The notes under the pieces were generated by a model. It had not been told where the DNA came from. It ran no database searches and was given only the letters and a program-made list of their open reading frames with translations. A stretch of 64,000 nucleotides of DNA from Microbispora bryophytorum (GTDB lineage: Bacteria > Actinomycetota > Actinomycetes > Streptosporangiales > Streptosporangiaceae). The position numbers and the translations under genes were made by a program. The DNA lies in assembly GCF_006874465.1 (NCBI RefSeq), contig NZ_VIRL01000014.1, forward strand, positions 62,001 through 126,000. Reading direction: 5' to 3'. Positions 20,518 through 23,121 of the stretch are shown piece by piece; positions within the stretch are counted from its first letter, which is position 1; every line of letters starts with the position of its first letter.

Positions 20518-23121
20518 GTGAGCGTGCTCGACTTCCCGGGGGGACCGGGAGGCTCCGATTCGATGTTCGAGCGGACGCCGCCGCACAACATCGAGGCCGA
20601 GCAGTCGGTGCTGGGCGGCATGCTGCTGTCCAAGGACGCCATCGCCGACGTCATCGAGGTGCTGCGCGCCGACGACTTCTACCGGCCGGCCCACCAGATC
20701 GTCTTCGAGGTGATCACCGACCTGTACGGCCGGGGCGAGCCCGCCGACTCGGTGACCGTCTTCGACGAGTTGCAAAAACGCGGCGAGGTCGCCCGGGTCG
20801 GTGGCGGCGCCTACCTGCACACGCTGACCGCGATCGTGCCCACCGCCGCGAACGCCGGCTACTACGCGAAGATCGTCCGCGAGCAGGCCGTCCTGCGCCG
20901 CCTCATCGAGGCCGGCACCCGCATCGTCTCCTACGGGTACGGCGGCCAGGGCGAGGAGGTCGACGACCTGGTCGACCGCGCGCAGGCCGAGATCTACAAG
21001 GTCACCGAGCGCCGCACGTCCGAGGACTACCTCCCGCTGTCGGAGATCATGCCGTCTGCGCTGGACGAGATCGAGGCCATCGGCAGCCGCAGCGGCCAGA
21101 TGGTCGGCGTCCCGACCGGCTTCCAGGACCTCGACGCCCTGACCAACGGCCTCCACCCCGGCCAGATGATCGTCGTCGCCGCGCGTCCTGCGATCGGAAA
21201 AGCGTTGGCCCTCGACACACCGCTGCCCACGCCCGACGGGTGGACCACGATGGGCGAGGTAAAGCTCGGTGACTACCTCATCGGCGCCGACGGCCGCCCG
21301 ACGCGTGTCGTCGCCGCCACGGACGTCATGGTGGACAGGCCCTGCTACGAAGTCGAGTTCAGTGACGGCACGGTCATCGTGGCCGACGCCCAGCACCAGT
21401 GGCTCACCGACACGCGCGCATCACGCAGATCGGCGCAGGCTGCCGCGACTGGCTACAACCGATACCGCAACCAGCGGACGTTCCCCGAAGTGCGAACGAC
21501 GGAGGAGATCGCCGCGACGCTGCGATGCGACACGGCGGACAAGCGGCTCAATCACACCGTCGCCAACGCCCGCCCGATGGACCTTCCCGCCTCTGACCTG
21601 CTGATCCCTCCGTACGCGCTGGGCGTCTGGCTCGGAGACGGCCACTCCAACGGTGCCAGATTCACCACAGGGGACCCGGAGATCGCCGAACATGTGGCCG
21701 CCGAAGGTCTCCGGGTGGAGCACCGTGGCGGGCTGCTGTACGCGATGCTGCTGCCCGAGCCGGAGCCGATCGCCGAACGACCGTGCATCGTGTGCCGACA
21801 GCCGTTCACGCCCAAGACAGCGCAGGTACGCACGTGCGGTAGGTCATGCGGCGGCCGGTCGAAGAACTCCGAACACGGCCCCTCGCAGCCGCCCAGGTGT
21901 CCCGACTGCGGCGGCCCGTCGAGCGGGCTCCGCCAGTGCCAGGCGTGTCGCGACGACCACGGCACTATGGGCGCACTGCTGAGGAAGCTGGGCGTGCTGG
22001 GTGACAAGCACATCCCCAGCGAGTATCTGCGCGCGTCTGAGGAGCAGCGCAGGGCGCTCCTGGCGGGGCTGTTGGACACCGACGGCTACATCAACGCCTC
22101 GGGGACGGTCCAGTTCGCTGTGACGAACCGCCGCCTGGCGGAGGACGTCTGGGAACTCGTCCTGAGCCTGGGCTACAAAGCGACCTTGACCTCCAAGAGG
22201 GTGCAGGGGCGCACTGAAGCCAGCTCGACGAGCTACACGATCACATTCACGCCCTCCGACAAGGTTTTCCGGCTGAGCCGCAAGAACGCCCGCGTGAACA
22301 CAAGCGCCCACCCCAAAGCGACGTACCGCATCATCACCGACGTTCGCCCGGTGATGTCGGTGCCGGTGCGTTGCGTCGAGGTGGACAACGCCGATCACAT
22401 GTACCTGGCTGGGCGAACGTGGATCCCCACCCATAACAGCACCCTTGGTCTGGATTTCGCCAGATCTGCGGCGATCAAGCATGGGATGACCACTGTCGTC
22501 TTCTCGCTGGAAATGTCGCGCAACGAGATCACCATGCGTCTGCTGTCGGCGGAGGCGCGGGTGGCGCTGCACACCATGCGCTCGGGCACGATGAGCGACG
22601 ACGACTGGACGCGGATGGCCCGCCGGATGGGCGAGGTCGCCGAGGCGCCGCTGTTCATCGACGACTCCCCGAACATGTCGATGATGGAGATCCGGGCCAA
22701 GTGCCGCCGCCTCAAGCAGCGTCACGACCTGCGCTTCGTGATCGTCGACTATCTCCAGCTCATGAGCTCGCCCAAGAAGACCGAGAGCCGTCAGCAGGAG
22801 GTCTCGGAGCTGTCCCGGGCGCTGAAGCTGCTGGCCAAGGAGCTCGAGGTGCCGGTCATCGCGATCTCCCAGCTCAACCGTGGTCCCGAGCAGCGTACGG
22901 ACAAGCGTCCGCAAGTGTCAGACCTGCGTGAATCGGGCTCCATCGAGCAGGACGCCGACATGGTCATCCTGCTGCATCGGGAGGACGCGTACGAGCGGGA
23001 GTCGCCGCGCGCGGGCGAGGCGGACCTGATCGTGGCCAAGCACCGAAACGGCCCCACGGCCACGGTCACGGTGGCCTTCCAGGGCCACTACAGCCGCTTC
23101 GTGGACATGGCCACTCACTGA
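20518..23121 (+). CDS. dnaB: Replicative DNA helicase DnaB, precursor containing an intein
   Basis: Hexameric helicase that unwinds the fork. The 867-residue precursor is a normal 455-residue DnaB once the intein (residues 229-640) is removed. N-terminal primase-binding domain: PPHNIEAEQSVLGGMLLS. RecA-like domain: GVPTGFQDLDALTNGLHPGQ, Walker A PAIGK/ST interrupted by the intein between K and S, FSLEMSRNEITMRLL, VIVDYLQLM, ISQLNRGPE and SDLRESGSIEQDADMV. GTG 20518 is chosen because AGGGGG lies seven bases upstream; GTGs at 20512 and 20524 are alternatives. The helicase cannot bind ATP until splicing restores GKST. Confidence 0.95.
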   Translation: MSVLDFPGGPGGSDSMFERTPPHNIEAEQSVLGGMLLSKDAIADVIEVLRADDFYRPAHQIVFEVITDLYGRGEPADSVTVFDELQKRGEVARVGGGAYLHTLTAIVPTAANAGYYAKIVREQAVLRRLIEAGTRIVSYGYGGQGEEVDDLVDRAQAEIYKVTERRTSEDYLPLSEIMPSALDEIEAIGSRSGQMVGVPTGFQDLDALTNGLHPGQMIVVAARPAIGKALALDTPLPTPDGWTTMGEVKLGDYLIGADGRPTRVVAATDVMVDRPCYEVEFSDGTVIVADAQHQWLTDTRASRRSAQAAATGYNRYRNQRTFPEVRTTEEIAATLRCDTADKRLNHTVANARPMDLPASDLLIPPYALGVWLGDGHSNGARFTTGDPEIAEHVAAEGLRVEHRGGLLYAMLLPEPEPIAERPCIVCRQPFTPKTAQVRTCGRSCGGRSKNSEHGPSQPPRCPDCGGPSSGLRQCQACRDDHGTMGALLRKLGVLGDKHIPSEYLRASEEQRRALLAGLLDTDGYINASGTVQFAVTNRRLAEDVWELVLSLGYKATLTSKRVQGRTEASSTSYTITFTPSDKVFRLSRKNARVNTSAHPKATYRIITDVRPVMSVPVRCVEVDNADHMYLAGRTWIPTHNSTLGLDFARSAAIKHGMTTVVFSLEMSRNEITMRLLSAEARVALHTMRSGTMSDDDWTRMARRMGEVAEAPLFIDDSPNMSMMEIRAKCRRLKQRHDLRFVIVDYLQLMSSPKKTESRQQEVSELSRALKLLAKELEVPVIAISQLNRGPEQRTDKRPQVSDLRESGSIEQDADMVILLHREDAYERESPRAGEADLIVAKHRNGPTATVTVAFQGHYSRFVDMATH
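21202..22437 (+). mobile_element. Class 3 intein with LAGLIDADG homing endonuclease in DnaB
   Basis: 412-residue protein intron between Lys and Ser of the DnaB Walker A. It begins with Ala (ALALDTPLPTPDGW) instead of Cys or Ser. The class 3 W-C-T set is present: Trp 67 next to the block B His (AQHQW), Cys 391 in block F (VPVRCVEVD) and Thr 410 before the terminal His-Asn (PTHN). The +1 residue is Ser. A homing endonuclease lies between, with motifs ALGVWLGDGH (Asp 146) and LLAGLLDTDG (Asp 294), both with their acidic residue. Eight cysteines (residues 195-249) sit between the motifs. It looks intact and active. Confidence 0.93.

Follow-up and report, generated by a model that had tools for sequence, protein, structure and literature searches.

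A class 3 intein in the DnaB Walker A loop with a LAGLIDADG endonuclease and a zinc-finger-like cassette, probably recombined from two lineages

The dnaB gene of Microbispora bryophytorum probably encodes a class 3 intein that is spliced from DnaB, carries a LAGLIDADG endonuclease together with a zinc-finger-like cassette, and is a recombinant of two intein lineages. The class itself is known; the unusual features of this copy are the zinc-like cassette and the chimeric structure. The gene lies in the window, a stretch of 64,000 nucleotides of contig NZ_VIRL01000014.1, and coordinates below are those of the window unless another locus is named.

The insert (21202-22437) has 1236 nt, or 412 codons in frame and free of stops. 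Read from GTG 20518, the dnaB precursor has 867 residues, 412 of the intein plus the 455 of DnaB that an earlier note, made from the letters alone, had predicted. The position and the residue set given there are right to the base: A1, W67, C391, T410, H411 and N412, followed by Ser+1. Also as claimed there, the P-loop is split between K and S of GKST, since the insert stands after ...AARPAIGK and before STLGLDFARS and divides the Walker A loop ARPAIGK/STLGLDF. Pfam places the DnaB N and C domains on either side of the insert and LAGLIDADG_3 and Hom_end inside it, all above cut-off. The host genome (7.85 Mb in 137 contigs) yielded a single full replicative DnaB and a single copy of this intein. 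The features of the locus are as follows.

20518..23121, + strand: dnaB precursor ORF, 867 aa from GTG 20518; the alternative start ATG 20563 is possible
20518..21201, + strand: N-extein, ending ...AARPAIGK (Walker A as far as K)
21202..22437, + strand: predicted class 3 intein, 412 aa, at the DnaB-b site
21202..21402, + strand: N-terminal splicing segment, blocks A and B, residues 1-67, with Cys48, Asp62, His65 and Trp67; congener-type lineage
21403..22326, + strand: homing endonuclease region, residues 68-375; 412-aa lineage seen in other genera
21613..21651, + strand: first LAGLIDADG motif, ALGVWLGDG, with Asp146 at 21637-21639
21784..21849, + strand: putative zinc finger 1, C195-x2-C198 / C212-x3-C216
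21898..21948, + strand: putative zinc finger 2, C233-x2-C236 / C246-x2-C249
22060..22092, + strand: second LAGLIDADG motif, LAGLLDTDG, with Asp294 at 22081-22083
22357..22437, + strand: C-terminal splicing segment, blocks F and G, with the predicted branch point Cys391 and Thr410-His411-Asn412
22438..23121, + strand: C-extein, whose first residue Ser+1 is the Walker A Ser

Judged by its sequence, the insert is an ordinary class 3 intein of a known type and is predicted to splice. Its ends match the solved class 3 inteins 6bs8, 6rix and 6riy at E 5e-42 to 9e-44, which excludes a chance match. Against 6bs8, residues 1-71 give an ungapped alignment and residues 378-412 pair with the final 35 positions; C48, D62, H65, W67, C391 and T410 of the window thereby correspond to C48, D62, H65, W67, C118 and T137 of 6bs8. 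Position 1 is Ala, with no Cys, Ser or Thr, as in all 167 distinct inteins described below; W67, C391 and T410 form the triplet Trp(B:12)-Cys(F:4)-Thr(G:5); and H65, H411, N412 and S+1 supply the block B His, the C-terminal His-Asn and the Ser/Thr+1. An AF2 model built from an alignment of 32 window and named-genome sequences (pLDDT 87.2, pTM 0.82) matches the fold of PI-SceI overall (E 2e-17) and that of 6bs8 in the splicing part. Both its sequence and its homology to class 3 inteins studied by experiment thus support the earlier class 3 call, and the alignment proposed as its check puts neither Cys nor Ser at position 1. The accompanying remark that the class is not new is right as well; such inteins are common in the order.

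Passages of PMC5222942 and PMC6195587 on relatives suggest how the reaction would run: Cys391 would attack the peptide bond before Ala1, the N-extein would be transferred from Cys391 to Ser+1, and Asn412 would cyclise, with the Walker A loop restored. For the Msm and Mle DnaB inteins, a section of PMC5222942 reports a block F branched intermediate and loss of splicing when Cys(F:4) is changed to Ala. Because the Walker A loop is split, the helicase is presumably inactive before splicing, which a passage of PMC6195587 on the same site calls "reasonable to assume".

We then asked how widely such inteins occur. Among 200 genomes of the order, 125 match the intein at E 0.001 or better, although the weakest matches may be other inteins. 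A scan of named genomes returned at least 577 relatives, the best 80 of which are all actinobacterial by record title and include Microtetraspora, Nonomuraea, Kutzneria, Nocardia, Rhodococcus, Mycobacterium and Geodermatophilus. We extracted 172 DnaB-b inteins, comprising 30 loci of the order (the window included), four of the genus (the window again included), the 80 best named matches and 58 of 60 fetched regions; subtraction of five duplicate proteins left 167 distinct inteins. Order genomes with weak matches only, some perhaps to other intein kinds, and at least one further place (G117) lie outside this set. The extraction pattern, which imposed none of Ala1, Cys48, Trp67, Cys391 or Thr410, required that the insert follow a P-loop, end in N or Q preceded by H, S, N, Q, K, R or D, and be followed by S, T or C; a wider pattern added five loci that the first had missed. 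Ala1, Cys48, Asp62, His65, Trp67, Cys391, Thr410, His411 and Asn412 are each present in 167/167 distinct inteins, window included, and Ser+1 in 172/172 extractions, counts that for the last two intein residues and the +1 residue are limited by a pattern that partly fixed them.

Within the genus, occupancy is patchy. Nine of 15 genomes, the host's own among the 15, have no intein in dnaB, four have a class 3 intein at DnaB-b, and the other two (G077 and G015) have a class 1-like intein (Cys1, HN/S) further down the gene, which we take for an occupant of the DnaB-a site; the window dnaB has no intein at DnaB-a. At four further loci (L009, L010, L150 and L154) the C-extein identity collapses about 480 nt past the insertion, as in these two congeners, and these genes may hold both inteins. 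The two regions left out of the 60 are class-3-like inteins in other genes. One (L148, 771-3353, + strand, genome G078) is 44% identical, interrupts the P-loop of a different DnaB-like helicase, is followed by Thr+1, and occurs in a genome that has the dnaB copy as well; the other (L160, 373-3453, - strand, genome G173) lies at GK/S of a P-loop protein that has no Pfam match outside the intein at E 0.01. A longer lineage of 496-501 aa (L045, L046, L048, L029-L031 and L033) carries an additional segment of about 90 residues between Trp67 and the endonuclease, and a stretch of the viral L240 resembles this segment. An intein at 62% identity in a record titled as a Bifidobacterium breve MAG (L080) ranked among Nocardia and Rhodococcus records; the contig is possibly misbinned.

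The window intein is a recombinant of two class 3 lineages. In codons 1-67 its DNA is 94% identical to the congener L045 and 78% to L005 from another genus, whereas in codons 68-375 the figures are 62% and 87%. Codons 1-67 have 39 sites that distinguish L045 from L005, and the window agrees with L045 at 36 of them (36:3); of the 349 such sites in the remaining codons of the intein, it shares 295 with L005 (54:295). The best break falls at 21399/21404 (residues 66-68, at Trp67) and was reached by 0/2000 permutations, every break being tried in the data and every second break in the permutations. At its other end the L005-like tract stops just past the junction with the C-extein, at about 22446, nine bases in, and beyond this point the sequence is mixed (7 congener-like and 6 other sites in the first 60 nt).

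Trees of 27 inteins, hand-picked from the 167, gave the same division. For codons 1-67 the window groups with three congeners (support 99/97), and for codons 68-412 it joins inteins of other genera in a ten-member clade (100/100). By the AU test, the congener clade is rejected for codons 68-412 (p 1e-35), as is an eight-row other-genus clade for codons 1-67 (p 0.004); these eight rows form no clade in the best 68-412 tree either, yet were unrejected there (p 0.24). Parents and groups for the break scan, trees and AU tests were named after inspection of an earlier comparison, whereas a check over all pairs was unselected. In that check, the two least-alike endonucleases among 32 pairs at least 90% alike in codons 1-67 both involve the window, as do the three least-alike codons 1-67 among 39 pairs at least 84% alike in the endonuclease. 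Milder mosaics were seen in L006-L149 (90% and 70%) and a few other pairs. The synonymous difference to L045 is 0.16 in the exteins, 0.18 in codons 1-67 and 0.61 in codons 68-375, and that to L005 is 0.32, 0.68 and 0.31, respectively; codons 1-67 therefore followed the genus and the rest another lineage.

An assembly chimera or a mixed culture in place of a real recombinant is extremely unlikely. The assembly is a draft in 137 contigs, as such an artefact would want, but its contamination estimate is 0.03% and the intein is single-copy; moreover, codons 1-67 differ by 6% from the nearest congener and so were not copied from it, their synonymous difference of 0.18 is similar to that of the exteins (0.16), and the break is in frame at a domain boundary. 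How the recombinant arose is less settled. To a history in which the 412-aa type was already resident and ordinary recombination with a congener replaced codons 1-67 alone, with no recent homing, we give somewhat less than an even chance. It agrees well with the synonymous differences, which in codons 1-67 against L045 are close to those of the exteins and in codons 68-375 against L005 equal that of the host gene (0.31 and 0.32), so that a recent jump across genera is not required. It agrees less well with an other-genus tract that seems to enter the C-extein by a few bases (to 22446), as conversion leaves, and with the 9 of 15 congener genomes that are empty. In a recombinant with its break at Trp67, Trp67 and Cys48 come from one parent and Cys391 and Thr410 from the other. 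Titles and abstract openings gave no mosaic class 3 intein; part of PMC9957025 describes within-gene recombination in intein-bearing phage methylases, and recombination around inteins as such is therefore not new.

The earlier note had argued for transfer from wobble positions that looked more A/T-rich in the insert. The difference is real but modest: 354 of the 412 codons of the insert end in G or C (GC3 0.859), compared with 409 of 440 extein codons when reading starts at ATG 20563 (GC3 0.930; Fisher p = 0.001), and low-GC3 codons extend into the C-extein. As evidence for transfer it is weak and cannot carry the claim; the mosaic structure and the patchy occupancy of the genus are better evidence, and these show recombination. 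The low-GC3 codons at the start of the C-extein (22438-22542) are present in intein-free congeners too, and we rejected co-conversion as their explanation; in this flank only the bases up to 22446 clearly follow the other-genus lineage. A close phage donor was also sought and none was found. None of the 721 phage records with a match to the intein reaches 60% identity, and in the 80 top viral contigs the best segment is 30-57% identical.

The endonuclease of the window looks intact, its activity being predicted from sequence. Both LAGLIDADG (DOD) motifs have their Asp, D146 and D294, which we take to be the catalytic residues, and LAGLIDADG_3 (42.0 bits, cut-off 22.5) and Hom_end (30.4, cut-off 21.1) both cover the second motif; this bears out the description of the copy as complete with its endonuclease. 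Such an enzyme would cut intein-free dnaB alleles at the GK/S site, and repair of the cut allele would copy the intein in; the intein-free alleles of the genus are potential targets. Across the 167 distinct inteins the splicing residues are universal, whereas Asp146 is found in 133 and Asp294 in 131, from which we conclude that constraint acts on splicing and that the endonuclease can be dispensed with, in keeping with the homing model. Against L005-L009, dN/dS of the window is 0.05-0.18 in the splicing parts (the N-terminal value within this range being distorted by a dS that recombination inflated), 0.14-0.30 in the endonuclease and 0.20-0.33 in the cassette. The corresponding values against L010, a decayed copy without either Asp, are 0.13-0.15, 0.34-0.48 and 0.52. 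Low dN/dS is no proof of a live endonuclease, because three of the five comparators with low values, L006, L007 and L008, lack Asp146 (Ala, Glu and Ala).

Between the two LAGLIDADG motifs, residues 195-249 form a cassette of eight cysteines, C-x2-C...C-x3-C followed by C-x2-C...C-x2-C. All eight are invariant in the 32 rows of the alignment, which comprise the window and a selection from the 80 best named matches, and the complete cassette is present in 109 of the 167 distinct inteins. We infer that the cassette most likely binds zinc and reads or holds the homing site. No Pfam zinc family scored over its cut-off (best DZR_2, E 0.082, 13.2 bits, cut-off 27), and membership in a named finger family is therefore not claimed. 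Folded alone with AlphaFold the cassette was poorly modelled (pLDDT 69.5, pTM 0.36); in the full AF2 model, the second Cys pair in either half lies at a helix (214-222 and 247-254). Among the best 80 of at least 584 viral class 3 relatives, 13 have C-x3-H...C-x2-C at the same place, mostly as CxRGH; 65 lack any such motif, and the remaining two have three CxxC and a single CxxC, respectively. A phage search with the 66-aa cassette for its source returned 49 records, with E 0.1-0.9 among the 25 matches listed. Titles and abstract openings, with thin coverage of subscription literature, gave no description of such a cassette in an intein; the relevant parts of PMC11855218 and PMC7765530 deal with HNH elements and engineered tools.

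The complete cassette tends to accompany the endonuclease residues. It occurs in 100 of 121 inteins with both Asp, 8 of 22 with one and 1 of 24 with none (100/121 versus 9/46, Fisher p 4e-14, uncorrected for kinship), and of the 58 inteins without it 37 also lack a catalytic Asp. Corrected for kinship on FastTree trees, 15 pairs gave 4.8 for co-loss, 0.4 against and 9.7 with no difference (median p 0.125), which makes co-loss only suggestive. Nineteen inteins with both Asp have just 0-4 of the eight Cys, and the alignment of the Asp is uncertain in strongly deleted inteins; the cassette may be unneeded for cutting, or those 19 copies may be dead or misaligned. They are also one of the arguments, with the poor stand-alone model and the lack of a Pfam match over cut-off, that the cassette might be no zinc-binding DNA reader but a graft, structural or regulatory in nature, with an effect on splicing or stability. 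We consider this unlikely, since cassette-less copies retain all splicing residues, the cassette sits between the two LAGLIDADG motifs, and a different viral motif occupies the same place in 13 of the best 80, as expected of an exchangeable DNA-binding module.

Zinc and redox could also act on splicing. Conditional splicing of the M. smegmatis relative is reported in parts of PMC6195587 (redox) and PMC7360933 (zinc). The reported redox partner in the M. smegmatis DnaB intein is Cys48, which a passage of PMC6195587 terms non-conserved, yet every Cys48 substitution tried there abolished splicing; a redox role and a plain catalytic need both fit its conservation. The zinc-binding residues of DnaBi1 given in a section of PMC7360933, C118, V119 and Y128, correspond to C391, V392 and Y401 of the window, and among the 167 inteins position 391 is C in all, position 392 is V in 150 and I in 17, and position 401 is Y in 142 and F in 25. 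By analogy, the window intein, with C48, C391, V392 and Y401 present, may respond to redox and zinc. It is distinctly less likely, and in our view doubtful, that the intein owes its retention mainly to a benefit for the host, which conditional splicing would help to pause replication, with the endonuclease secondary. The invariant Cys48, non-conserved in the wording of PMC6195587, the conserved zinc-binding positions and the low dN/dS of L006-L008 without Asp146 would suit such a switch, but a residue whose every tried substitution kills splicing (same passages) needs no sensor role to be conserved, and the nine genomes of the genus without an intein in dnaB indicate that the benefit is not general. 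Less probable still is a two-output zinc device, in which zinc in the finger cassette would arm the endonuclease and zinc at Cys391/Val392/Tyr401 would block splicing, the N-terminal splicing segment and the endonuclease-plus-C-terminal part being modules exchanged at Trp67. If it were true, high zinc would stop helicase maturation and favour a homing-competent unspliced or slowly spliced protein.

Returning to the reading that we prefer, a recombinant class 3 intein with a zinc-finger-like cassette, if the cassette binds zinc then the 109 of 167 distinct actinobacterial DnaB inteins that have it would be further cases with intact splicing residues, and so, probably, would many more of the at least 577 relatives. 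Some viral class 3 inteins would be cases too, with a motif of another form. In the chimera, the WCT Trp of one parent is combined with the Cys/Thr of the other, and the two members of the reported redox pair of cysteines are likewise of separate parentage. This natural experiment offers a direct test of the exchange of intein parts, and it indicates a junction that is tolerated and could serve in class 3 intein engineering.

Among named systems, the window intein shares with M. smegmatis DnaBi1 (6bs8, 6own) and M. chimaera DnaB-1 (6rix, 6riy) the same P-loop insertion, Ala1, Cys48, Asp62, His65, Trp67, the block F Cys and THN. M. smegmatis DnaBi1 is a mini-intein according to a passage of PMC6195587, whereas the window has an endonuclease and the eight-Cys cassette; the nested endonuclease domain of the class 3 intein in PMC7664689 had, by part of that text, been deleted before work. 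The inteins of Microtetraspora glauca (L062/L007) and Nonomuraea sp. SYSU D8015 (L068/L008) are 84-85% identical in protein over 412 aa and have the same cassette, but the N-terminal 67 codons of the window are from another lineage, and the first Asp (position 146), kept in the window, is Glu in L007 and Ala in L008. PI-SceI (the VMA intein), which splices by the class 1 route, shares the overall splicing and endonuclease fold of the window model. In contrast to the window with its putative cassette, VDE has no zinc finger in the account given in part of PMC7282813. The nearest likeness to the cassette in that account is yeast HO and WHO, intein-derived LAGLIDADG endonucleases with a Cys-rich zinc-finger region, of which HO needs zinc; in HO/WHO the finger region is C-terminal and self-splicing is absent, whereas in the window the putative fingers are internal, between the two motifs, and the splicing residues are intact.
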